Assembly (NCBI RefSeq): GCF_039645565.1
Contig: NZ_CP147914.1
Location: 434,001 to 498,000, forward strand
Direction: 5' to 3'
Source: Sulfurimonas sp. HSL1-2
Lineage (GTDB): Bacteria; Campylobacterota; Campylobacteria; Campylobacterales; Sulfurimonadaceae
Length of the DNA: 64,000 nucleotides
Numbering within the stretch: the first letter of the stretch is position 1; every line of letters starts with the position of its first letter. The translations under genes and the position numbers were made by a program. The notes beneath the pieces were generated by a model, which did no database searches, had not been told where the DNA came from, and saw only the letters and a list, made by a program, of their open reading frames with translations. This document shows, one piece after another, positions 1 to 13,600 of this stretch.

Positions 1-382
1 CGCCGTACGCCTCGCAATAAGCGTCGACAAGCCGGTACTCGTCGGCGTGTGCTTTGACGTCTTCAGGGCTCTGGGCCCGGATGACCCGGACATAGGGGCA
101 CTCCAGGGCGTCAAAGAGGCTTTCGGGCGCGTCGAAATGGATCTGGGCGAGGGTGATGCCGCTCGTCTTCGCCGCCGCGTTGATGGCGGGAGCCTCCTCG
201 TTGACGAAGAGACCGACTTTTTCGACGAAGGGGGGGAGGCGTTTGATGATGTCGGCAGCCGCTTCGGGGGTGATATGGCGCGGCGAGGGGGGATAGAAAA
301 CGAAACCGAGCGCGTCGGCCCCGGCCTCGATTGCACTCATCGCGTCTTCATAGGAGGTGATGCCGCAGATCTTGACGCGCAC
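1..382 (-). CDS. trpF: Phosphoribosylanthranilate isomerase (3' end outside window)
   Basis: Isomerises N-(5-phosphoribosyl)anthranilate to the carboxyphenylamino-deoxyribulose phosphate in cytoplasmic tryptophan synthesis. Translating the minus strand from a GTG start gives VRVKICGIT, the typical TrpF beginning with the catalytic Cys in KICG. A GADALGFVFYPPSPR stretch follows, typical of strand 2, and then VGLFVNE. About 127 residues of an expected ~200 are present and the rest runs off the left edge. The GTG lies 7 bases after the rpe stop, so the two genes are probably co-transcribed. No strong ribosome-binding site is visible and translation may be coupled. The family assignment is secure; the exact start is inferred. 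Confidence 0.9.
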   Translation of the reverse strand, partial: MRVKICGITSYEDAMSAIEAGADALGFVFYPPSPRHITPEAAADIIKRLPPFVEKVGLFVNEEAPAINAAAKTSGITLAQIHFDAPESLFDALECPYVRVIRAQSPEDVKAHADEYRLVDAYCEAYG

Positions 383-389
383 GGAAGGC

Positions 390-1031
390 TCAGACTTTCA
401 GGCTGTCAATGGCCGCTTTGAGGCCGTCTGCATGTTTGAAAACGTAGCTGCCGGCGACGCAGACGTCTACACCCGCTTCGGCGAGCGCGGCGATATTGGC
501 ATCGTTGACCCCGCCGTCAACCTCGATAAGGCAGTCGGGGTTGAGACGGTCGCGCAGGTCGCGCAGGCGGCGCACCTTCTCGTATACGTCGATGAATTTC
601 TGACCGCCGAAGCCGGGGTTGACGCTCATGACGAGGACCATGTCAATGTAGGGCAGCAGGTATTCGAGGCTCTCTGCCGGCGTGTGCGGGTTCAGCACGA
701 TGGCCGGTTTGATGCCGAGGCTGCGGATATACTGCGCCAGGCGGTGCGGGTGTTTCTCCTCTTCAATATGGAAGGAGATGTACGCCGGTTTCAGCGGGGC
801 GAAGAGGTCGACGAAGAAGGTGTTGTTCTCGACCATCAGGTGGATGTCGAGGGGTTTGGTGGCCGCTTCGGCTACCGCGGAGACGACGACGGGCCCGATG
901 GTGAGGTTCGGGACGAAATGGCCGTCCATGACGTCGACGTGCACCAGGTCGCACCCGGCGTCGCAGATTGCGTTGACGTCGCGCGCGAGGTTGCCGAAAT
1001 CGGCGGAGAGAATACTGGGGGCTACAAGCAT
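390..1031 (-). CDS. rpe: Ribulose-phosphate 3-epimerase
   Basis: Interconverts ribulose-5-phosphate and xylulose-5-phosphate in the pentose phosphate and Calvin pathways. The protein (213 aa) opens with MLVAPSILSADFGNL, the family signature with the catalytic first Asp. It carries HVDVMDGHFVPN with metal-binding His and Asp, then the HLMV strand, MSVNPGFGGQ and EVDGGVN with the second catalytic Asp. It is a complete TIM barrel of normal length. An upstream in-frame ATG would add 12 residues, but the chosen ATG follows AGAAAGGG at good spacing and matches family starts. It sits 7 bases upstream of trpF. A carbon-fixation role is possible but not shown by the neighbours. Confidence 0.96.
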   Translation of the reverse strand: MLVAPSILSADFGNLARDVNAICDAGCDLVHVDVMDGHFVPNLTIGPVVVSAVAEAATKPLDIHLMVENNTFFVDLFAPLKPAYISFHIEEEKHPHRLAQYIRSLGIKPAIVLNPHTPAESLEYLLPYIDMVLVMSVNPGFGGQKFIDVYEKVRRLRDLRDRLNPDCLIEVDGGVNDANIAALAEAGVDVCVAGSYVFKHADGLKAAIDSLKV

Positions 1032-1148
1032 TGCGCTACCCTTTCTTTTTTGTGGCATTTTATCCAAATAGTGCGTGTATTGCGATAAAATGTCGGGACA
1101 CCAAAGTGCTACAGTGGCTATTTAAGGAACTCTTTTGATTTGAGAGGA

Positions 1149-1154
1149 TATAAT
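1149..1154 (+). promoter_or_regulatory. Probable -10 box upstream of rpmB
   Basis: A perfect TATAAT lies 32 bases before the rpmB start codon, in the divergent gap between rpe and rpmB. No good -35 box is visible, which is common for sigma-70 promoters in Campylobacterota. Position and sequence are seen; promoter function is inferred. Confidence 0.5.
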
Positions 1155-1185
1155 GCGCCACTAAATTTACGCAAGGAGCCTTCAT

Positions 1186-1377
1186 ATGGCAAGAAAATGT
1201 GCTATTAGCGGTAAGGGCCCAATGAGCGGAAACAACGTTTCTCACGCGAAAAATCGCACGAAAAGACGTTTCATGCCTAATCTTCGCACCGTCCGCGTCC
1301 AGATGGAAGACGGTACGACTAAGAAGATTAAGATCTCTGCTTCTGAGCTTCGTACTATGAAGAAAAAGCAGGCGTAA
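1186..1377 (+). CDS. rpmB: 50S ribosomal protein L28
   Basis: Structural protein of the large ribosomal subunit. The 63-residue product begins [20 protein letters not shown], the standard L28 N-terminus, continues with [10 protein letters not shown], and ends in a Lys-rich tail. Length is normal for the short epsilon-type L28. Start choice is supported by AAGGAG 6 bases upstream of the ATG. The gene is first in a plus-strand run followed 27 bases later by a potassium channel gene, an association common in this lineage. Only one Cys (residue 5) is present, so it appears to be the zinc-free form, but that is an inference. Confidence 0.97.
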
Positions 1378-1404
1378 CCCCTTACGCCTAAAATAGAGCG
1401 CCGT

Positions 1405-2535
1405 TTGAATCTAATTGAAAAGATTCGGGCCTTTCTTCACTGGGAGACCCCTCCCAAACCCCAATACGATCTACTTCCCGATATTTACAGCCATCTCAAA
1501 CCGTTTAGACTGCCGCTGATTTTTACGGCAATCATCATGTTCCTCGGTACCATCGGCTACATGGTCATCGACGACTTTTCGCTCATCGACGCCATCTACC
1601 AGACGGGGATCACCTTTACGACGGTCGGCTTCGGGGAGATCGCCCCCATCTCCGATGCGGGAAGGCTCTTTACGATCACGCTGATCATTACCGGGTTCGC
1701 CGTCTTCTCGATGGCGGTCGGTATTCTGGTCAACGAGATCAACCGCGGCAACATCTACAAAACCATAAAGGAGCGGGACATGCTCTACAAGATCGCGCGC
1801 TTGAAAAAGCATTTTGTCATCTGCTACCACAACGATTACACCATCGAAGTCACGAAGGAGCTGCGCCGTTCGCACATCCCCTTCGTCGTGATCGATCCCC
1901 GCGAGGAGATCGAGGCGTGGGCGAAACAGCACAAGTACCCCTATTTTCTCCGCGAAGAGCCCCACACCGAGGTGGCGATGCTCAAGGGGCACCTGAGCTC
2001 TGCAAGCGGGGTGATCACCCTCTCGCCGCTCATCGCGGACAACATCGCGATCATCGCCTCCGTGCGCCTCTTCGAGAAGGAGCACCAGCTGCCGCGGCCG
2101 TACAACCTGATCAGCTCGGCCGAGACGATGAGCGACGTCGAGAAGCTGAAAAAACTCGGGGCAGATACCGTCGTCTCCCCGACGAAGCTGACGGCACAGC
2201 GTATCACCTCCATGGCGGCGCGCCCCGATATGGAAAACCTCCTCGAGGAGTTCCTCTACCGCAGCGACACCCCGCTTGATATGGAGGAGATCTTCGTACC
2301 CAAATACAGCTGGATGGTGCTCAACCGCCTCAAGGAGACCCATCTCCGCGAGATCGCGAACGTCTCCGTCGTCGGGGTCACGCGCAAAGACGGCAAGTTC
2401 GTCGCCATGCCCAAAGGCGACGACCTCGTCACCAGCGAGTCGAAACTGCTGGTCGTCGGGACCGAGAAGGGGATCAAAATGACCAAAGAGCTGGTGAAAC
2501 AGCGTAAAAAACCGCAGGAGTTGCGTTATGTTTGA
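1405..2535 (+). CDS. Two-TM potassium channel with RCK domain
   Basis: Inner-membrane ion channel of the Kch/MthK class. After a cytoplasmic N-terminus, TM1 covers about residues 35-55. The pore loop has the selectivity filter TTVGFGE (72-78) and TM2 covers about 85-108. A cytoplasmic RCK unit follows: a TrkA-N-like Rossmann region (about 133-255) and a TrkA-C-like region (about 285-365). The first Rossmann strand reads HFVICYHNDYTIE, so the usual glycine-rich nucleotide-binding loop is replaced and ligand gating may differ. The start is a TTG with no strong ribosome-binding site. The stop overlaps the argJ start by 8 bases. Potassium selectivity is inferred from the filter; the gating ligand cannot be read. 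Confidence 0.9.
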   Translation: MNLIEKIRAFLHWETPPKPQYDLLPDIYSHLKPFRLPLIFTAIIMFLGTIGYMVIDDFSLIDAIYQTGITFTTVGFGEIAPISDAGRLFTITLIITGFAVFSMAVGILVNEINRGNIYKTIKERDMLYKIARLKKHFVICYHNDYTIEVTKELRRSHIPFVVIDPREEIEAWAKQHKYPYFLREEPHTEVAMLKGHLSSASGVITLSPLIADNIAIIASVRLFEKEHQLPRPYNLISSAETMSDVEKLKKLGADTVVSPTKLTAQRITSMAARPDMENLLEEFLYRSDTPLDMEEIFVPKYSWMVLNRLKETHLREIANVSVVGVTRKDGKFVAMPKGDDLVTSESKLLVVGTEKGIKMTKELVKQRKKPQELRYV

Positions 2536-3715
2536 GATGAAAAAAGTCGGTGGCGGCGTCTGCGCGCCGGAGGGGTTCTTTGCGGGGGCGGCGAGTGCCG
2601 GCCTGCGCCCGAACGGGGCGGACGACGTCGCCTTTATCTATGCCGACACCCCCTGTGAAATGGCGGCGGTCTTCACGACCAACAAGATGACGGCGGCTCC
2701 GATCCGCCACTACCGTGCGAAAGGGAGTTTCAAGAGCAACTTTGTGCTGATGAACGCCAAAAATGCCAACGCCATGACGGGCCCCGCCGGGATCAGCGAT
2801 ATCGACGAGGTCCTCGGGGAGCTGCAGGCGCATTACGGCGTCCTTCAGAACCCGGTGATGAGTTCCACGGGGGTCATCGGTGTCCGCATGCCCAAAGCCA
2901 AGATCACGGCGGCGGCAAAGACCTTCGACCTCTCCGTCAAAGACAGCCTGGCGGCCGCGAAAGCGATCATGACGACGGACACCTTTTACAAAATGGTGTC
3001 GACCGAGGTCGTCCTGGAGGGCGGCAAGCGTTTCCGCCTCGGTGCGATCGCCAAAGGGGCGGGGATGATCAACCCGGCGATGGCGACGATGCTCTGTTTT
3101 GTCACCACCGACGCCGATGCCGGTGCGGAAGCGCTGCAGGCTTGCCTCGAAGCGGTCATCCCGACGACCTTCAACGCGGCCAGCGTCGACGGCGATACGT
3201 CGACGAACGATACGGTGATGCTCTTTTCCAACCGCAAGAGCGGTGCGTTTGACGCCGAGGCGTTCACGACAGCCCTGCACGAAATGCTGCTTGAACTGGC
3301 CCAGATGATGGTCAGCGACGGCGAGGGGGCGACGAAGATGGTCACCTTCCACGTGACGGGCGCCGCCAGCGATGAAGAGGCGGAGACGGCGGCGAAGGCA
3401 CTCTCCAACTCGCTGCTGATGAAAACGGCCATCTTCGGCGAGGACCCCAACTGGGGCCGGGTCGCATCGACGATCGGTGCCAGCGGCGTTGCGTGTGACG
3501 AGGCGACGCTCACGGTCAGTTTCGACGAGGTCTGCGTCTACGACAGGGGGACGATCCTCTTTGATGCGGAATCGGAAAAGCTGGCGGCGGCGGTGATGAA
3601 ACGCGAACGCTTTACGATCAGCTGTGACCTGGGAATGGGTGAGGGAGCGTTTGACGCCTACGGCTGCGATCTCGGGCACGAGTACGTCAAGATCAACGCC
3701 GACTACAGAACGTAG
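2528..3715 (+). CDS. argJ: Bifunctional glutamate N-acetyltransferase / amino-acid acetyltransferase
   Basis: Transfers the acetyl group from N-acetylornithine to glutamate in the cyclic arginine pathway, and in many bacteria also makes N-acetylglutamate from acetyl-CoA. The 395-residue product has the self-cleavage and nucleophile site KGAGMINPAMATML, with cleavage expected between Ala186 and Thr187 and Thr187 becoming the catalytic residue of the beta chain. The oxyanion-hole segment SSTGVIG (112-118) and the GEDPNWGR segment are present. GCAGGAG precedes the ATG by about 7 bases. Overlap with the channel gene points to coupled translation. Whether the enzyme is mono- or bifunctional cannot be decided from sequence. 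Confidence 0.96.
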   Translation: MFEMKKVGGGVCAPEGFFAGAASAGLRPNGADDVAFIYADTPCEMAAVFTTNKMTAAPIRHYRAKGSFKSNFVLMNAKNANAMTGPAGISDIDEVLGELQAHYGVLQNPVMSSTGVIGVRMPKAKITAAAKTFDLSVKDSLAAAKAIMTTDTFYKMVSTEVVLEGGKRFRLGAIAKGAGMINPAMATMLCFVTTDADAGAEALQACLEAVIPTTFNAASVDGDTSTNDTVMLFSNRKSGAFDAEAFTTALHEMLLELAQMMVSDGEGATKMVTFHVTGAASDEEAETAAKALSNSLLMKTAIFGEDPNWGRVASTIGASGVACDEATLTVSFDEVCVYDRGTILFDAESEKLAAAVMKRERFTISCDLGMGEGAFDAYGCDLGHEYVKINADYRT

Positions 3716-3733
3716 CGGCGATTTGAAGGAGAA

Positions 3734-3755
3734 GACGGCGGCCTGCGCGGCCGTC
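3734..3755. terminator. Possible bidirectional terminator hairpin
   Basis: GACGGC and GCCGTC (6 bases each) can pair around a GC-rich 10-base loop, in the short gap between the convergent argJ and outer-membrane protein genes. There is no clear T run on either side, so an intrinsic terminator is only possible. Confidence 0.35.
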
Positions 3756-3756
3756 G

Positions 3757-4380
3757 TCAGAAGCGGTAGCCTACCTTGAGAAGGGTCCGCAGATTGTCGA
3801 GGCTGTATTTCTTCGTACCGCCGAAATCGTTTTCGGTGGTCCATGTGCGGCGGATATCCACACCCGCCAGGAAACTTCCCATATAGTATTTCAGACCCGC
3901 GCCGGCCTGCAGCGTAAAGAGCCAGTCATTCTGGGTATCGGTGGATGTCGTCGGGAACAGTCCGCCTGTAGTCGTGGTCACGGGGTATTCGGTATACATT
4001 GCACCGATGCCGGGTCCGAAGCCGAGGACGAGGTTCTTGGTGAAATGGATGAAATAGTAGGGGTTCATTTCGATTGCAGTAATCGTCACGTCATTTTTAT
4101 CGTAACGGCTCAGGCTCAGCTGCTGGCGAAGCAGGTTGTCGCCGGGAAGGGTGAATACGGGGCAGTCGAAAGAGAACTGGAGACCGTAGTTGTAGTCATC
4201 CTTGACGGAACCATTGTCAAAGTTCATCGTCCCGCCGACGGCGGCGAGTTCGATGTTCGCTTTCCAGTCCGGATCAGTGAAGATGGGCAGCAGGACGAAT
4301 TTGTCTGCGGCGGTTGCCGCCGATGCAGACAAAATCGCGGCGCCTGCCAGGACGCTGAGCAGTTGGGTCGTTTTCTTCAT
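3757..4380 (-). CDS. Outer-membrane beta-barrel protein, function unknown
   Basis: Small exported protein (207 aa). The signal peptide is MKKTTQLLSVLAGAAILSA with probable cleavage after ATAA. The mature part alternates polar and hydrophobic residues and is rich in Tyr, Phe and Asn. It ends in TLLKVGYRF, a typical C-terminal beta-signal with a final Phe for BAM-mediated insertion. This suggests an OmpW/OprF-like barrel of about eight strands. The start follows AGAGGAG; an in-frame ATG 18 codons upstream lacks a signal-peptide logic and is not preferred. It is an isolated convergent gene next to argJ. No ligand or substrate can be assigned. Confidence 0.75.
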   Translation of the reverse strand: MKKTTQLLSVLAGAAILSASAATAADKFVLLPIFTDPDWKANIELAAVGGTMNFDNGSVKDDYNYGLQFSFDCPVFTLPGDNLLRQQLSLSRYDKNDVTITAIEMNPYYFIHFTKNLVLGFGPGIGAMYTEYPVTTTTGGLFPTTSTDTQNDWLFTLQAGAGLKYYMGSFLAGVDIRRTWTTENDFGGTKKYSLDNLRTLLKVGYRF

Positions 4381-4519
4381 TTTTACTCCTCTCTTGAAGA
4401 AAAATCGTGTGCACGATAGGCAAACTTTTTCCATTTATCATACAGACAATCACATTTTATTCACATTTTTCTGAAAAATAATAAAAAGTTATCTGAGTGC
4501 CCCCGTGAAAGTACGGGTT

Positions 4520-5140
4520 TCAGCGTGGGGGAAGGTCGAGGTGGGGGAGGTGCCAGCCGCGGTAATGGGCGACCAGGCGGAGCACGGTGGCAAAGAGGGC
4601 GACGGCGAGAATGGCCGTGTCGTTCAGCCAGCCGAGGGCATCGAGCAGGATCAGCAGGACGGCGACGATGACGGCGATGGTGCCGTAGAAGTCGCTGGTG
4701 AGGATGGCGGGAACGGTATTGACGAGAACGTCGCGGGTCACCCCGCCGCCGATGGCGGTGAGGAAGCTGACGATGATGATGCCGAAAAAGTTGAATTCCG
4801 CCGCGAGGCCCAGCAGGGCGCCGGTGATGCTGAAGGCGACGAGGCCCACCGTGTCGCTGATGATAAAGAGCCATTTGCGTTCCAGCGCGTCCCGGCGGTA
4901 GAGGCGGAGGGCCAGGGCTAGCACGACGCTGGCAATGACGGTCACTGCCGGGTAGTAGTGGGTAAAGGCGAAGGGGGTGCGGTCAAGCATGAGGTCGCGG
5001 ATGACCCCGCCGCCGAGCGCCGTCAGGGAAGCGACGATAATCAGCCCCAGCAGGTCAAGCCGGTGGCGTACCCCGGCGAGGAAACCGCTCAGGGCAAAGG
5101 CAACGATGCCGATGATGTCGGCGAGGATAAAAAAGTCCAT
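4520..5140 (-). CDS. TRIC-family (UPF0126) inner-membrane channel protein
   Basis: Predicted seven-helix inner-membrane protein (206 aa) of the prokaryotic TRIC cation-channel family, also annotated as UPF0126 or glycine-transporter-like. Two internally repeated halves are visible. Each has a Gly-rich kink: LTALGGGVIRDLML around residue 45 and LTAIGGGVTRDVLV around residue 130. These match the two PF03458 units. The protein begins MDFFILADIIGIVAFALSG, a direct membrane segment without signal peptide. Twelve bases separate its start from the carbonic anhydrase stop upstream, so the two likely share a transcript. Potassium-channel activity is known for some homologues; here it is inferred. Confidence 0.85.
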   Translation of the reverse strand: MDFFILADIIGIVAFALSGFLAGVRHRLDLLGLIIVASLTALGGGVIRDLMLDRTPFAFTHYYPAVTVIASVVLALALRLYRRDALERKWLFIISDTVGLVAFSITGALLGLAAEFNFFGIIIVSFLTAIGGGVTRDVLVNTVPAILTSDFYGTIAVIVAVLLILLDALGWLNDTAILAVALFATVLRLVAHYRGWHLPHLDLPPR

Positions 5141-5152
5141 GGTCCCGGTGTG

Positions 5153-5689
5153 TCAGGCACCCGCGATGCGGAAATCCTCTTTGAACGCGACATAGCGTTC
5201 TGCGGAGGCGTAAAGCTCTTTGACCTCTTCATCGGACAGTTCACGGACGACTTTGGCCGGGGAGCCCATGATGAGCGAACGGGGCGGGAAGACTTTGTTC
5301 TTCGTGACCAGCGCCCCGGCACCGACGATGGACTCCTTGCCGATGACGGCGCCGTCGAGGATGGTCGCGCTCATGCCGATCAGACAGGCGTCTTCGATCG
5401 TGCAGCCGTGGAGCATGACGCGGTGGCCGATGGTGACGTCGCTGCCGATGATGGTCGGGTGGCCGTCGCTCATGTCGGGCTTTTTGTAGTGGGTGACGTG
5501 GATCATGGAGAGGTCCTGAACATTGGTCCGGTCGCCGATGACGATGCGGTGGACGTCCCCGCGCACGACGCAGCCGAACCAGACGGCGCAGGATTCACCC
5601 ATGGTGACATTCCCGATGACGTCGGCGCTCTTTGCGATCCAGGAATCGTCGCCGATCTGGGGTTCCCATTGTTTGAAAGGGTAGGTCAT
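5153..5689 (-). CDS. Gamma-carbonic anhydrase family protein (YrdA type)
   Basis: Left-handed beta-helix protein (178 aa) with hexapeptide repeats across most of its length. Putative zinc ligands match the family pattern: His64 in MIHVTH, then His89 and His94 in the GHRVMLHGC segment. VRGDV, with its structural Arg and Asp, and NVQDLS are also typical. The C-terminal segment [10 protein letters not shown] is characteristic. Family members form trimers and may hydrate CO2, but many YrdA-like proteins show weak or no activity, so the reaction is uncertain. It lies between ppk1 and the TRIC-type gene on the same strand, 20 bases after ppk1 in that direction. Confidence 0.9.
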
Positions 5690-5709
5690 TGCTGCTCCTT
5701 GCGGCGGCC

Positions 5710-7803
5710 TCAGCTCTCTTTGAAGAGGCGGGAGGCCAGTTTGTTGATGTAGTTCGTATCGCGTTTTTTCGACGACTTGTAGAGTTTGGTCGTATGCTGT
5801 TCGAGCAGGAGCTGGGAGTTGACCGGGTTTTCGCCGGACTCGACCCTGTGGTAGCTTCCGTCGCTCTGCAGTTCATGGGAAAGGACGTTGTCCGTGAGCT
5901 GGAGGGTGAGCAGCTGCAGGAGCTTCTCTTTGGACTCTTCGTCCTCGATTCCCGTCATCAGTTCGATACGGCGCACGAGGTTCCGCGGCATCCAGTCGGC
6001 GCTGGAGATGTACATCTGCGGGTGGCCGTGTTTGAAGTAGAAGACACGGGCATGCTCGAGGTACTTCCCGATCAGCGAGGTGACCCGGATATTTTCGCTC
6101 ACCCCTTCGATGCCCGGGACGAGGCAGCAGATCCCGCGGACGATCAGGTCGATTTTGACCCCGGCCTGCGAGGCCTTGTAGAGGGCACGGATGACATCCT
6201 CGTCGACGAGGGAGTTGACCTTGACGATGATGCGCCCCTCCGTCCCCATGCGGGTCTCGTTCTGGATCAGCGAGAGGATCTTCGGCTTCGTCTGTGTCGG
6301 GGACATGTAAAGCTTGTTCAGTTTCCCTTTCTTGCTGAATCCCGTCAGGAAGTGGAAGAAGCGTGTCATATCGTTCGTGATCGCCTCGTTGGAGGTCATA
6401 TAGCTGACGTCCGTATAGATCTTCGCCGTACCGGGGTTGTAGTTCCCCGTGCCCAGGTGGGCGTACTGTTTGAGCTTGTCGCCGACCTTGCGGGTGACGA
6501 GGGCGGCCTTGGCGTGGACCTTGAAGCCGGGGATGCCGTAGATGACGTGCGCCCCCGCGCTCTCCAGCGCCTTGGCCCAGATGAGGTTGTTCTCCTCGTC
6601 GAAACGCGCCTTGAGTTCGACCATGGTCGTGACCTGCTTGCCCGATTCGGCCGCCTGCATCAGGGCGTTGACGATGGGGGAGTTCGTCCCGCTGCGGTAG
6701 AGCGTCATCCGGATGGAGACGACATCGGGGTCTTTGGCCGCCGCCTGGATGAATTTGACGATAGGCTCGAAGCTCTCGTAGGGGTGGTAGAGCAAGACGT
6801 CCTGTTTGTCGAGGACGGAGTAGATGCTGTCCTCGGAATCCAGCGGGGGCAGGTTCCGCGGTTTGTACGGCGCCGCGACGAGGTGCGCAAAATCCTTGTT
6901 GCCGACGATCTGCCAGAGGCTGGCGAGGTTCAGCACGATCTTGAAGCGGTAGAGGTCGTCTTTATAGACGTTGGTATGGCGGTTGAAGAAGTCGATAAGC
7001 TCGTCGTCGGCGTCGACCCCGATCTCGAGACGGACCAGCTCCCCTTTTTTACGGAGCTTGAGCCCCTCTTCGAGCATCTCCATGAAGTCGTCGGCCTCCT
7101 CCTCTTCGATGGTGATGTCGGCGTTGCGCGTGACGCGGAAAGGAGTGTACTGCAGCAGGGTGTAGCCCGGGAAGAGCTCATCGATGTGCTGGGCGACGAT
7201 GCTGCCGATGGGGACGTAAATGCCGGTACCGATCTGTACGAAGCGTGGCAGAACCCGCGGGATGCGCACCAGGCCGTAGCGCTGGACGTTTGGATCGTCG
7301 TTGTCCTGGAGTTTGACGATGAGGCCGAAGCTGAGGTTGTTCAGGTGCGGGAAGGGGTGGGTGCCGTCGACGGCGATCGGGACGATGACCGGGTAGATAT
7401 GTTCATGGAAGTAACGGTTGACTTCCCCCTTCTCCTGGTTGTTCAGCTCCGAATAGCGTTTGAGGAAGATCCCCTCGTCTTTCAGGCCGGACATGATCTC
7501 GATAAAGGTATGTTCGACGACCTGCAGCTCCCGGTGGAGGTACTTGCGGATCTCGCGCAGCTGCTGCAGCGGGGTGAGGCGGTCGGGGCCGGAGAGGATG
7601 ATCCCGGAGGTGAAGAGCTTTTTAAGCCCCGCAACGCGGATCATGTAAAACTCGTCGAGGTTGGTTCCGTAGATGGCAAGGAACTTCAGGCGCTCGAGCA
7701 GCGGCTGTTTTTTGTCCTGGGCCTGCTGCAGCACACGGGTGTTGAACTGCAGCCAGGAGAGTTCACGGTTAAAATAGAATTTTGGGTCTTTCAGATTGGT
7801 CAT
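5710..7803 (-). CDS. ppk1: Polyphosphate kinase 1
   Basis: Reversibly polymerises the terminal phosphate of ATP into inorganic polyphosphate. The 697-residue protein has the full PPK1 layout. The N-terminal domain opens with [12 protein letters not shown] head domain follows, then two phospholipase-D-like domains. The autophosphorylated His is His430 in [11 protein letters not shown], followed by [18 protein letters not shown]. The second conserved His lies in [18 protein letters not shown] near residue 590. Length is normal (about 690). The gene is transcribed with the downstream carbonic-anhydrase-like gene (20-base gap). Polyphosphate storage fits a lithotroph facing variable conditions, but this is inference. 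Confidence 0.97.
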
Positions 7804-10187: not shown

Positions 10188-10523
10188 ATGAAAAAGATGA
10201 TGATGGGTGTCGCAGCAGCGGCAGGTATCACTTCAGTTGCATCTGCAGCAGAACTGGCAGCTACTGATGCGCAGTTTATGTTCGGTGCGAGCAATGTAGA
10301 TGCAGTCGCAATGACTGGTGCTGAAATGGTCGGTACGCAGGGACAACTGCTCGGTCTGACTATCCTCGACCCGGTTCTTAACATTGTCGGCAGCCTGCCG
10401 CTCGTCGGACCAATCGTTTCTGGTCTGCTCGATACTGTTGACGGTCTGCTTTCAGGTCTGCTCGGCGGCGGTCTTCCGCTCGTTGGCGGTCTGCTCGGCG
10501 GCGGCCTCCCGCTGCTCGGTTAA
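10188..10523 (+). CDS. Small secreted Leu/Gly-rich protein with leader-like motif, copy 1
   Basis: Function unknown. The 111-residue product has a Sec signal peptide (MKKMMMGVAAAAGITSVASA). A segment TDAQFMFGASNVDAVAMTG follows, then AEMVGTQGQLL, and then a hydrophobic Gly/Leu/Pro tail with two copies of GLLGGGLPL. After the signal peptide there is no Lys, Arg or His. The motif around residues 25-53 is shared with the next gene and resembles a bacteriocin-type leader (see findings). ACAGGAG precedes the ATG, favouring this start over an upstream one. A terminator-like hairpin follows directly. Downstream lie an outer-membrane barrel and a C39-type peptidase, the likely export and processing partners. 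An amyloid-like or bacteriocin-like product is conceivable; neither is proven. Confidence 0.7.
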   Translation: MKKMMMGVAAAAGITSVASAAELAATDAQFMFGASNVDAVAMTGAEMVGTQGQLLGLTILDPVLNIVGSLPLVGPIVSGLLDTVDGLLSGLLGGGLPLVGGLLGGGLPLLG

Positions 10524-10542
10524 CACACCCCTCTTACCCTTA

Positions 10543-10560
10543 CCCTCCCTCCGGGGAGGG
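10543..10560 (+). terminator. Terminator hairpin after secreted protein 1
   Basis: CCCTCCC and GGGAGGG form a perfect 7-base stem with a TCCG loop, 20 bases after the stop, followed by a pyrimidine-rich GTTCTTCTTT. It probably gives partial termination, making secreted protein 1 the most abundant product of the locus. Confidence 0.65.
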
Positions 10561-10746
10561 GTTCTTCTTTCCCTATTCCAAATCAACCTTCTTTTAACGA
10601 CAGCAACAGCACGGTTCTGATCCGTATCACATTGATATTTTTGTGATGAAAAGAAAAAAAATTTCTGTTTTTCAATGTTTTAATTGTGATTTCTATACGA
10701 AAGGCTAAATTATTTAAAAATTGTTGTATTTTTAACAATAGTTTAA

Positions 10747-10803
10747 TGTGATACGGTATAAAGTTTACGTACGAACGTTAATTCAAACGCTTCAGGTATC
10801 ACA
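10747..10803 (+). promoter_or_regulatory. Inverted repeat TGTGATAC...GTATCACA before secreted protein 2
   Basis: A perfect 8-base inverted repeat (10747-10754 and 10796-10803) flanks 41 bases just upstream of the ribosome-binding site. A third copy, GTATCACA, is at 10624-10631. The arms could form a stem in the 5' leader or be protein-binding half-sites; TATAAA lies just inside the left arm. The rest of the 258-base gap after the terminator is AT-rich and shows no gene. Confidence 0.4.
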
Positions 10804-10818
10804 TCTAAAGGAGAAAAG

Positions 10819-11223
10819 ATGAAAAAAGTGTTGGCAAGTATTGCAGTTGCAGGTATGATCACAAGCGTTAGCGCTGCAGATTTCGGCACAGCGGATGCAC
10901 AGTTCATGTTTGGTCAGGACAGTGTCAATGTCGTAACGATGAGTGGTGCGGAAATGGCACAGACGGAAGGTCAACTCCTCGAAGCACTCGGTGCACTCGG
11001 CGCGATCCCGGTTGCAGGTCCGATCCTGACGGATCTGCTCGCTAGCCTCAACCTCGGCGCACTGCTCGGGCTGGTACCGGCTGCACTCGGCGCGGCATTC
11101 CCGATCACGGCTGACCTCGATGTCAACGTCGGCGGCCTGCTGAGCATTGATACAGGTAGAGATCCGCTTACCATCGACTCCGGACTCCCGGCACTGGTCG
11201 GTGCGGTCGTTTCCTCACTGTAA
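10819..11223 (+). CDS. Small secreted Leu/Ala-rich protein with leader-like motif, copy 2
   Basis: Paralogue of the preceding secreted protein (134 aa). Its signal peptide is MKKVLASIAVAGMITSVSA. It has the same TADAQFMFG, then V-V-M-SGAEM and TEGQLL. The C-terminal part diverges: it is rich in Leu, Ala and Gly without the GLLGGG repeats and has a single basic residue (Arg in TGRDPL). AAAGGAG precedes the ATG. The conserved part ends exactly where a C39 peptidase would be expected to cut, supporting processing into leader and mature domain. It is separated from copy 1 by a terminator and a leader with inverted repeats, so the two may be differently expressed. Function is unknown; a surface fibre or bacteriocin-like role is possible. 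Confidence 0.68.
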   Translation: MKKVLASIAVAGMITSVSAADFGTADAQFMFGQDSVNVVTMSGAEMAQTEGQLLEALGALGAIPVAGPILTDLLASLNLGALLGLVPAALGAAFPITADLDVNVGGLLSIDTGRDPLTIDSGLPALVGAVVSSL

Positions 11224-11234
11224 CATACCCCGGT

Positions 11235-11254
11235 GTGCAGGTGTCAACCTGCAC
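11235..11254 (+). terminator. Hairpin after secreted protein 2
   Basis: GTGCAGGT and ACCTGCAC form a perfect 8-base stem with a GTCA loop 11 bases after the stop. CCCCTTTTCTGCTTTTACTTTTT follows, T-rich but not a clean run. It probably acts as an attenuator between the peptide gene and the barrel-peptidase pair. Confidence 0.55.
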
Positions 11255-11328
11255 GCCACCCCTTTTCTGCTTTTACTTTTTAAGTTGAATCCCCCTAAAA
11301 TCATGATGAAATTACACAAAGGTTATTT

Positions 11329-12258
11329 ATGTTCAACAAAAAAGCATTATTTGGCTTTTTAGGTGCGGCGACACTGCTCTCGACACTGCTGCACGCGGAC
11401 GGCCAGACTCCGCTGAAAGTCGAAGAGCTTCTTTCCAAAAAGAATGCGTTCAACGTCGATGTCTCCGTCGCGTATTCCAACATCGACCAAAAAACGGCGA
11501 TGAGTACGGTGGTCCCGGTCTCGACGCTGCTTTCGTTCATCTACATCCCGGCGTACGCGGGCGAGCAGGTCCTCGACCAGGACGTGGTCGTTACATCCCT
11601 CAACCTCAAGTACGGTCTGACCGATTGGCTTGAACTGGTCATGTATGCCAACGGGCATAATACTTCCAGCCGCGTGCAGCTCGGCGACGCGATCGCGAAC
11701 CAGGCCGACACGGATTTTGACCATGCCGGTATCGGGGCGACGTTCAGGGTCAAGGATGAGGGTGTATACCCCTCGCTGCTGGTGGGGGTCTCGACCAACG
11801 TGATCGGCCGGCTGACCTTTGCAGACCGCGATGTCGACGGCAACGTCATCGGGACGACGAAGCAGGACAAGACGTTTGAATCGTTCAACTTCTATGCGCT
11901 CTCCTACTACACGGTGGACCCGGTTGTTTTCGTCTTCAAAGCGCAGTACCAGTGGAGTGTGGAAGAGGATTACAAAGGCGATACGGGTGACCGTCCGGAT
12001 ATCCTGGCGATTTCGCCGCAGGTCTACTTTGCCGTCAACCCCTATACCAACCTCAGCTGGGGTGTGACCTACCGCTACCAGACGGAGCAGCGCTTTAACG
12101 GCAAAGTGGAGACGATTGCGGAATCCTCCATCGGCTACAACATCGGGGTGAGCTACGAGGTCTCCCGGGGCAACATCATCTCTCTGGATGCCAGCAACAA
12201 CGAAACGGCCACGTACAGCCAGAACACGATCAACCTTATCTACTCAAAGCGGTTCTGA
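11329..12258 (+). CDS. Outer-membrane beta-barrel protein, FapF/transporter-like
   Basis: Exported barrel of 309 aa. The signal peptide is MFNKKALFGFLGAATLLSTLLHA. A short segment with VEELLSKKNAFNVDVSVAYS follows, then many amphipathic strands. The protein ends in NLIYSKRF, a C-terminal beta-signal with final Phe. LKYGLTDWLELVMYA is the periodic strand pattern seen in PF13557-type barrels and in Pseudomonas FapF. The stop shares one base with the start of the C39 peptidase gene (TGATG), so the pair is translationally coupled. In Fap systems the barrel secretes amyloid subunits with help from a periplasmic C39 protein; the same arrangement here suggests secretion of the upstream small proteins. 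The long FapF coiled coil is absent. Likely, not certain. Confidence 0.65.
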   Translation: MFNKKALFGFLGAATLLSTLLHADGQTPLKVEELLSKKNAFNVDVSVAYSNIDQKTAMSTVVPVSTLLSFIYIPAYAGEQVLDQDVVVTSLNLKYGLTDWLELVMYANGHNTSSRVQLGDAIANQADTDFDHAGIGATFRVKDEGVYPSLLVGVSTNVIGRLTFADRDVDGNVIGTTKQDKTFESFNFYALSYYTVDPVVFVFKAQYQWSVEEDYKGDTGDRPDILAISPQVYFAVNPYTNLSWGVTYRYQTEQRFNGKVETIAESSIGYNIGVSYEVSRGNIISLDASNNETATYSQNTINLIYSKRF

Positions 12259-12974
12259 TGAAACGGGCATTGCAGGCACTCTTCCCGGCACTCTGGCTGC
12301 TCGCGGCGGCTGATGTGTATGCCGGCCAGGCGGAGGGCGAGGTGAAAACCGCCATGCCGATCATCGAGCAGGAGTACACCGTCAGGGTTCCGGTGAAAAG
12401 CTGGAGCGAGCTCAAAGAGCAGGATGTCGTACGCCAGCGCTACGACTTCTCGTGCGGTGCGGCGTCGATGGCGACGATCATGAACCATTTTTACGAGCAG
12501 AACGTGACCGAGAACGGTATCGTGCAGACGGTCCTGAAAATGAAAGGCGTCGGAAGCGATGCCCACAAACTTGAGAAGAGCGATTTCGCCCTCTCGTTTG
12601 CCGATCTCGCCGATTACGGGCAGACCATCGGGTTCAGGGGCGTGGGTGTTGCGATGGATATCGATGCCCTGCGCAAGCTGCGGATTCCGGTCATCCTCTA
12701 TGTCAAGATCCGCCGCTTCGAACACTTTACCGTCTTCAAGGGGATCCGCGGCGACTTCGTCTACCTGGCCGACCCCTCATTCGGCAATATGAAGGTGAAG
12801 ATGGCAAAGTTCCTGGAGATGTTCTACCAGCGTGATGACCTCAAACACCCCGGGCGGGTGCTCGCGTTTATACCGGTGGACAAAGAGGCTGTTCATCCCG
12901 ACAAAACGTTTATGACCGTCCCCGACTCCACCGATTATCTCTACCAGTACATCGAAAACAGGATCGACCACTAG
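12258..12974 (+). CDS. Periplasmic C39-family cysteine peptidase (FapD-like)
   Basis: Stand-alone C39 peptidase domain (238 aa) with an N-terminal signal peptide (about residues 1-22, ending DVYA), so it acts in the periplasm and is not fused to an ABC transporter. Active-site residues are all visible: oxyanion Gln60 in VVRQRYDFSCG, Cys66, His156 in FEHFTVFKG and Asp172 in YLADPSFG. The length and layout match periplasmic C39 proteins such as FapD. It overlaps the barrel gene by one base and follows two small secreted proteins with leader-like motifs, its most probable substrates. C39 enzymes normally cleave after Gly-Gly-type leaders; the motif here is a variant. The peptidase call is strong, the substrate inferred. 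Confidence 0.88.
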   Translation: MKRALQALFPALWLLAAADVYAGQAEGEVKTAMPIIEQEYTVRVPVKSWSELKEQDVVRQRYDFSCGAASMATIMNHFYEQNVTENGIVQTVLKMKGVGSDAHKLEKSDFALSFADLADYGQTIGFRGVGVAMDIDALRKLRIPVILYVKIRRFEHFTVFKGIRGDFVYLADPSFGNMKVKMAKFLEMFYQRDDLKHPGRVLAFIPVDKEAVHPDKTFMTVPDSTDYLYQYIENRIDH

Positions 12975-13006: not shown

Positions 13007-13600
13007 TTAAAAGAGGAAGTTGATCCCGCCGTAGTAGCGTACGGAGTTGTCATCCGTCGAGAGCTTGGTGTAGCTTGGCGTGTAATACGTGATGTCCTGC
13101 CATGTGCGCCACTGAAAATCGACGCCGCCCATCAGCTCCAGCTGCGGCGCGATGCGGAAGATAAGTCCTGCCCCGATCTTGAGACTGAGTTCGTTGATAC
13201 GGTCGTCATCAGGGTAGTAATAGCTGTCAAGCCGCATCGAGCCGCTGCCGATTCCCGCCTGGATAAAGGGCATCAGTGCCGAGTACGTTTCGAAGGTTTT
13301 CATGACATCCAGCCCGAGCTCGTACAGCTCGTCGTTCGAGTAGTCAAAGAGCGGCTCGTCGAAGAGTTCACCGAGCAGATAGCCCTGCAGGCGCCACCCG
13401 TCGTAGAGGACGGCCCCGAATTTAAGGGCGAAACCTTTACTGCCGATCGATGGTCTTTCATGATAGCCGTTGGCTTCAAAATCGAATTTGTTTTCGCTGC
13501 CGAAAAGGTTCAGACCGAAATAGAGGTCCGCCCGCTGCGCCCAGGCATTGGCCGAGAGGGTCCCCAGCAGCAGCGGGATAAAAAGCATGGATTTACGCAT
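13007..13600 (-). CDS. Outer-membrane beta-barrel protein, function unknown
   Basis: Exported 197-residue protein with signal peptide MRKSMLFIPLLLGTLSANAWA followed by QRADLYFGLNLFGSENKF. Alternating strands run to the C-terminus, which ends YYGGINFLF, a beta-signal with terminal Phe. It is about the size of an eight-stranded OmpX/OmpW-like barrel. AAGGATT precedes the ATG; an adjacent TTG codon one residue earlier is not preferred. It converges with the C39 peptidase gene (32-base gap) and diverges from a thioesterase gene. Whether it belongs to the secretion locus is unclear because it is on the opposite strand. No substrate can be named. Confidence 0.75.
   Translation of the reverse strand: MRKSMLFIPLLLGTLSANAWAQRADLYFGLNLFGSENKFDFEANGYHERPSIGSKGFALKFGAVLYDGWRLQGYLLGELFDEPLFDYSNDELYELGLDVMKTFETYSALMPFIQAGIGSGSMRLDSYYYPDDDRINELSLKIGAGLIFRIAPQLELMGGVDFQWRTWQDITYYTPSYTKLSTDDNSVRYYGGINFLF

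Follow-up and report, generated by a model that had tools for sequence, protein, structure and literature searches.

Genes of the locus

In a 64,000-nucleotide stretch of the Sulfurimonas sp. HSL1-2 genome (bases 434001-498000 of 2.52 Mb in one contig), which we refer to as the window, we examined a candidate peptide export locus of four genes (Table 1). An earlier note on this DNA had described two paralogous small genes with Sec signals, followed by an outer-membrane barrel gene that shares one base with the gene for a signal-bearing C39 peptidase, and these points held together with their coordinates. The small proteins are 42% identical across 107 amino acids (aa; E 2e-21), their N-termini both satisfy the simple home-made heuristic rule by which Sec signals were called, and one base is common to the barrel stop and the C39 start (TGATG, 12256-12260). 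What the note had overlooked was a second leader motif in the small proteins and a convergent outer-membrane-protein gene downstream. The four-gene order is kept in three congeneric genomes (four including the window) and the ratio of non-synonymous to synonymous substitution rates (dN/dS) is 0.04-0.10 for each of the four genes between the window and two congeneric genomes, indicative of strong purifying selection. Together the low ratios and the kept order argue that these are real genes and not chance open reading frames (ORFs).

The C39 identity of the peptidase is given by Pfam PF03412 (E 1.9e-15), and Gln60 as well as the Cys66, His156 and Asp172 named in the earlier note are invariant among 30 homologues. 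An AlphaFold2 model (predicted local distance difference test, pLDDT, 86.5) is nearest to the leader-cutting C39 domains of peptidase-containing transporters, including 6mpz which was solved with a leader peptide. The protein is not fused to an ATP-binding cassette (ABC) transporter and stands alone with its own signal. Its top curated models are FapD of the Fap amyloid system at 101 bits (NF058616) and then FilB at 79 bits (cut-off 475), and with a cut-off of 330 bits for NF058616 it does not qualify as a FapD. In a tree of 112 C39 sequences it groups with Campylobacterota loci of the same layout, outside both the supported FapD clade (97/91) and the supported Fil-type clade (99/96); a broader grouping with betaproteobacterial loci is weak (85/41). 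A C39 from a contig labelled Marinifilum (Bacteroidota) nests among the Campylobacterota in the same tree, which reflects either horizontal transfer or a binning error.

The link between the barrel and FapF came from the fold search only. The AlphaFold2 model of the barrel (pLDDT 88.5) shows 12 strands, and the nine top-ranking folds from the PDB are all FapF, with E down to 9.5e-13, the next being the COG4313 protein 4rl8. At the level of sequence there was no match in Pfam, or in NCBIfam at E<=1, including the FapF model NF058560 which gives 394 bits on a Guyparkeria FapF, nor any match of the barrel profile to PDB sequences, FapF included. In the model about 20 residues with only a short helix lead from the signal to the first barrel strand and there is no N-terminal trimeric coiled-coil domain. 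Of the 119 loci with a C39 match, 101 also contain a relative of the barrel by an iterated profile, a count that speaks for adjacency and not for specificity because the database consisted of C39 neighbourhoods only and drift of the profile is possible. The barrel and C39 genes lie a few bases apart in most of the 31 loci with the window layout. In four loci of the wider set the barrel or C39 genes look broken or shortened while a leader gene can persist, which suggests decay of the system in some hosts.

Table 1 Features of the locus, with positions in the window
Feature	Coordinates	Strand	Remarks
Predicted substrate 1	10188..10523	+	111 aa; Sec signal residues 1-20, then a propeptide that includes the leader and a mature part of 58 aa rich in Leu and Gly
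Leader of substrate 1, MTGAEMVGTQGQ	10311..10346	+	Residues 42-53; matrix score 18.2; predicted C39 cut between MTGAEMVGTQGQ and LL
Terminator-like hairpin and T-rich tail 3' of substrate 1	10543..10560	+	Weak
Predicted substrate 2	10819..11223	+	134 aa; Sec signal residues 1-19, leader, 82-aa Leu/Ala/Gly-rich mature part
Leader of substrate 2, MSGAEMAQTEGQ	10939..10974	+	Residues 41-52; matrix score 25.0; predicted C39 cut between MSGAEMAQTEGQ and LL
FapF-like 12-strand outer-membrane barrel	11329..12258	+	309 aa; Sec signal; without N-terminal coiled-coil domain
Periplasmic C39 peptidase	12258..12974	+	238 aa; Sec-type signal
Gln60 codon, oxyanion-hole position of C39 peptidases	12435..12437	+	Invariant
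Catalytic Cys66 codon	12453..12455	+	Invariant
Catalytic His156 codon	12723..12725	+	Invariant
Catalytic Asp172 codon	12771..12773	+	Invariant
Small outer-membrane barrel protein OMP_b-brl	13007..13600	-	198 aa; convergent, just downstream of the C39 gene

A putative second leader beside periplasmic C39 genes

Both small proteins carry a putative second leader of the double-glycine type shortly after the signal peptide, with the common pattern M-x-x-x-E-M-x-x-T-x-G-Q. Leaders of this type have a hydrophobic residue at -12, an acidic residue at -8, hydrophobic residues at -7 and -4 and small residues, canonically glycines, at -2 and -1 from the cut. In the window proteins M/E/M/T/G occupy positions -12/-8/-7/-4/-2 and the residue at -1 is Gln where the canonical leader has Gly. 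The predicted mature parts begin LLGL... and LLEA..., with VAMTGAEMVGTQGQ-LLGLTIL spanning one of the predicted cuts. Among relatives the leader ends vary. Campylobacterota have TEGE, TKGE, TDGE and IQGK, Collimonas relatives with the layout of the window have TEGG and TEGA, and Campylobacter-type loci have VKGG; a canonical double glycine (GG) stands at the same place in Campylobacter-type loci (LSLDEMKEVKGG) and in Collimonas (LSQQEMKETEGG). The Collimonas protein with LSQQEMKETEGG passes the class IIb bacteriocin model TIGR03949 over residues 47-74 (23.4 bits against a cut-off of 21.5), a match which, judged by sequence, bridges the window motif to an accepted leader type. Leaders of the same layout adjoin periplasmic C39 genes in Campylobacterota, Pseudomonadota, Thermodesulfobacteriota and Aquificota.

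In 11 Campylobacter-type loci the proteins with Sec and GG signals usually adjoin a leaderless protein, often starting MINSIN or MSIFSIN. Csep1 of Campylobacter concisus was considered as a cargo of the window type and dropped, its solved structure being a solenoid with no C39 link mentioned; a plasmid protein tested alongside gave no PDB match.

To see whether chance could account for the leader we counted it in signal-peptide ORFs. In the window it occurs in 2 of 21 such ORFs, both of them the small genes, and a leader profile run over the whole host genome gave significant scores for these two proteins only. Across the loci 318 signal-peptide ORFs lie no more than 3 kb from a C39 gene and 68 of them have the motif, where shuffled sequence would give 4.3; of those beyond 5 kb it is present in 2 of 59. 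These counts are partly post hoc, as the regular expression was drawn from some of the loci tested, and a cross-phylum matrix test and a genome co-occurrence test were therefore run. A matrix trained on Campylobacterota leaders recovered 51 of the 231 neighbours from other phyla, with 1.4 expected, and none of 58 beyond 5 kb. One trained on the other phyla recovered 38 of 161 Campylobacterota neighbours, with 1.3 expected, and 2 of 17 that lie beyond 5 kb. Among 299 genomes of the order, 17 have a window-type C39 (E below 1e-26) and 14 of these gave a leader-profile match, compared with 5 of the 282 others (Fisher 2e-17; 1e-11 without the genomes that fed the profile; 5e-8 when the window genus was also left out).

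The earlier note had held that its reading would fail if the barrel and C39 genes regularly occurred without the small genes, and had asked whether the gene order recurs. Regular absence of the small genes was not what we saw: a leader gene was present in 23 of the 31 window-layout loci within the fetched stretches, and about half of the eight others are cut by contig ends. Leader genes can also lie elsewhere in a genome: Helicobacter sp. 10-6591 has one on another contig, and two of four in Collimonas are far from the C39 locus. A missing neighbour is therefore not the same as a missing substrate. In one Collimonas genome (G306) leader-bearing genes are found on contigs away from the C39 locus, which suggests that one peptidase may serve dispersed substrates.

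The association bears on two alternatives. One is that the small genes encode unrelated periplasmic proteins which happen to lie beside an operon of barrel and C39 that serves other substrates. The small genes may be separate transcription units, as they are followed by gaps of 295 and 105 nucleotides, and a terminator-like site follows the first, albeit a weak one as the count of such sites is not above that in shuffled sequence. Set against the order kept in four genomes, the association of leader and C39 across genomes and phyla and the finding of no other leader protein in the host genome, we regard chance neighbourhood as highly improbable. The other alternative is that the apparent leader is an uncut structural part, while the C39 protein cuts a different target, the barrel for instance, or serves solely as a chaperone. 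The Gln in place of Gly before the predicted cut would fit such a role; FapF has been weighed as a target of FapD by Rouse et al., who also point out that some type 1 systems use inactive C39-like domains as chaperones (PMC5557850). We consider this unlikely given the invariant catalytic residues, a motif whose spacing fits C39 leaders and which turns into canonical GG in relatives, and its specificity for the neighbourhood of window-type peptidases and for the genomes that have them.

Proposed route and nature of the cargo

We propose that the locus probably serves a two-step export of peptides. Substrates 1 and 2 would be precursors with two consecutive targeting elements, of which the Sec signal would carry them over the inner membrane and be removed by signal peptidase. 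The Sec-exported C39 peptidase, with Gln60, Cys66, His156 and Asp172, would then, in the periplasm, recognise the double-glycine-type leader and cut behind it. Once freed, the hydrophobic Leu/Gly-rich peptides would pass through the co-translated FapF-like barrel or be released by it at the surface. A route from Sec through periplasmic C39 trimming to the barrel had been suggested in the earlier note; it fits all of the findings and the double-glycine-type leaders lend it independent support, although we infer from comparison that the cut falls at the predicted bond, that the peptides move through the barrel and what they do.

Several points weigh against this proposal. All of the support is comparative and the signal peptide calls depend on the home-made rule. 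The residue before the predicted cut is Gln (Glu or Lys in near relatives) and not the Gly canonical for C39 peptidases, and sequence searches linked the barrel neither to the FapF family nor to the FapF entries of the PDB. Four loci (L046, L070, L076 and L084), each with several kb of flank, have no leader gene by the matrix.

The predicted mature parts of 58 and 82 aa are strongly hydrophobic (grand average of hydropathy, GRAVY, 1.43 and 1.19), contain 0 and 1 Lys/Arg and 1 and 2 Gln/Asn, and resemble neither the cationic Nap peptides of Neisseria gonorrhoeae nor the Fap subunits. The main rival to our proposal is a Sec-routed bacteriocin or microcin system in which the C39-barrel pair would export the mature peptides as toxins that act on the membranes of competitors. 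The hydrophobicity of the window peptides would suit such a role, and many relatives have Gly-rich or cationic mature parts with one matching the class IIb bacteriocin model. A small gene with 2-4 transmembrane (TM) segments lies directly 3' of 11 of 32 leader genes in relatives, which is the layout of bacteriocin and immunity genes, and related loci are found on small mobilisable plasmids. In the window no small TM immunity-type gene adjoins either peptide gene, the peptides carry almost no positive charge and they are 90-97% identical between species with dN/dS of about 0.04-0.09, unlike toxins in an arms race; furthermore the nap peptides were inactive against competitors (PMC11798529). A toxin system is thus possible for the window but clearly the less probable reading, and because of the strong conservation, the lack of positive charge and the absence of an immunity-type gene we favour a structural or surface role here. 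Most likely the cargo acts at the cell surface as a hydrophobic coat or matrix component or as a membrane-active peptide. Many leader genes of the Helicobacter type are followed by a secreted protein of about 250 aa.

Small mobilisable plasmids with barrel and C39 genes were seen in Acinetobacter (6.3 kb) and E. coli (6.2 kb), the former also with a leader peptide and a 3-TM gene, and from this content the system appears to travel as a compact cassette. In each of the four genomes of the window genus the OMP_b-brl gene downstream runs convergently towards the C39 gene, and its membership in the export system is uncertain. In relatives a second small barrel or a secreted protein of about 250 aa often adjoins the leader genes, as in eight of the loci. 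Scans with PHROGs and PADLOC gave no useful match and hence no link to phage or defence.

FapE and other known systems

The Pseudomonas Fap system (FapA-F) shares with the window the barrel fold, a Sec-exported C39 with intact catalytic residues and Sec-exported cargo. It differs in that the window has no FapA, FapB, FapC or FapE and no coiled coil on the barrel, its C39 belongs to another clade, and its barrel and C39 genes are adjacent and overlapping. The locus might be taken for a true Fap-type functional amyloid with the two peptides as fibre subunits, in keeping with the FapF-like fold, with FapD as the top-scoring curated model for the C39 and with two paralogous secreted proteins. We judge this improbable, as the FapD score is far under its cut-off, the FapF model gives no match, the C39 lies outside the FapD clade, the barrel lacks the N-terminal coiled coil, no homologue of FapA, FapB, FapC or FapE was recognised and Gln/Asn are scarce in the mature parts. 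The earlier note was borne out in finding the peptides to be no obvious FapB/FapC homologues, neither small protein matching a Fap family in Pfam or NCBIfam, the FapE model NF058559 included. Its further suggestion of a distinct, Fap-like class also holds: the barrel fold, the position of the C39 and the lack of Fap subunits agree with it, but the class is not unprecedented in view of the nap island (PMC11798529).

FapD is required for secretion of Fap amyloid and its target has been reported as unknown (PMC5557850, PMC6173800). It depends on its active cysteine while the Fap proteins are without a canonical C39 site (Rouse et al., PMC5557850), and for FapE alone no mass spectrometry peptides came from the first ~70 residues (PMC5557850). 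FapD-FapF pairs were described in five further phyla in 2018, without cargo (PMC6173800). In our data FapE homologues of Fap-type operons (NF058559, E 9e-22) carry the same leader after the signal peptide, among them LTDPELAEMRGR before F, LTDEEMGDMRGR before Y and LSESRLSNIRGK before Y, and each adjoins a C39 gene and a FapF-like barrel where the stretch reaches. The pattern, ELxxMRGR/K followed by F/Y directly after the signal peptide, was seen in 21 loci and its Arg-Gly is invariant in 12 aligned homologues; our first motif expression had overlooked it by disallowing Met at -4. No Pseudomonas FapE above the curated cut-off was present in the sampled genomes, and the claim therefore rests on homologues from other Gammaproteobacteria (67-120 bits). 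The leader agrees with the mass spectrometry of that study and makes FapE a candidate substrate of FapD. If true, this turns the open question of the FapD target into a test of one bond.

In the Fil system (FilA/DUF6160, the C39 FilB and the barrel FilC; NF050077-79, PF19657) a Sec-exported DUF6160 protein with a leader of the form ...E/D-L-xx-V-x-(G/A)-Q likewise lies beside a C39 gene, often with a barrel, and the DUF6160/FilA-type proteins beside Fil-type C39 genes have leaders of the VTGQ/VTAQ type. Fil differs from the window in its larger cargo, in leaders ending mostly in AQ or GQ and in a C39 of another clade. A Fil-like version with large Sec proteins, LSDKDLGSVSAQG-type leaders and a C39 was seen in six Campylobacterota loci from two families of the order, where the N-terminal stretch of the barrel looks coiled-coil-like. 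The C39 ABC transporters which export class II microcins and class IIb bacteriocins (peptidase-containing ABC transporters, PCAT; LahT/AMS) share the C39 fold and leader logic, but their C39 is cytosolic and fused to the transporter whereas that of the window is Sec-exported, stands alone and is paired with an outer-membrane barrel.

Taking these systems together we lean towards one widespread pathway, in which Sec precursors with a second double-glycine-type leader would be cut in the periplasm by a stand-alone C39 and leave by a FapF-like barrel. This would unite the window peptides with the bacteriocin-like and Nap-like peptides, the Campylobacter GG proteins, FilA/DUF6160 and FapE, the last as a FapD substrate cut after ...E-L/M-x-x-M-R-G-R/K. 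A search for proteins with a Sec signal and, behind it, E-L/M-x-x-x-x-G-[G/Q/E/K], encoded close to a periplasmic C39 peptidase, would help to find secreted peptides and proteins in many phyla that are now annotated as hypothetical. In the open-access library that was searched, with subscription papers outside the search, we found no description of the two-signal layout of Sec and double glycine or of the FapE leader.

Among published systems the one nearest to the window locus is the nap island of Neisseria gonorrhoeae (the C39 NapP, the FapF-like NapF, the GG peptides NapABC, and also NapI; PMC11798529), which similarly holds in one locus a periplasmic-type C39, a FapF-like channel and small peptides with a double-glycine-type site. 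A periplasmic cut by NapP and export by NapF have been proposed, with NapH suggested for passage of the inner membrane, and a text search of the paper returned no mention of a signal peptide (PMC11798529). A gonococcal stretch in our set has a C39 but no barrel or leader by the profiles, and it may not be the nap island. The Naps are cationic peptides with GG sites, encoded on an island that was acquired horizontally and includes a LagC-like immunity gene, whereas the window cargo, hydrophobic and almost without charge, bears a Sec signal and a leader ending in GQ and is without an adjacent immunity-type gene.

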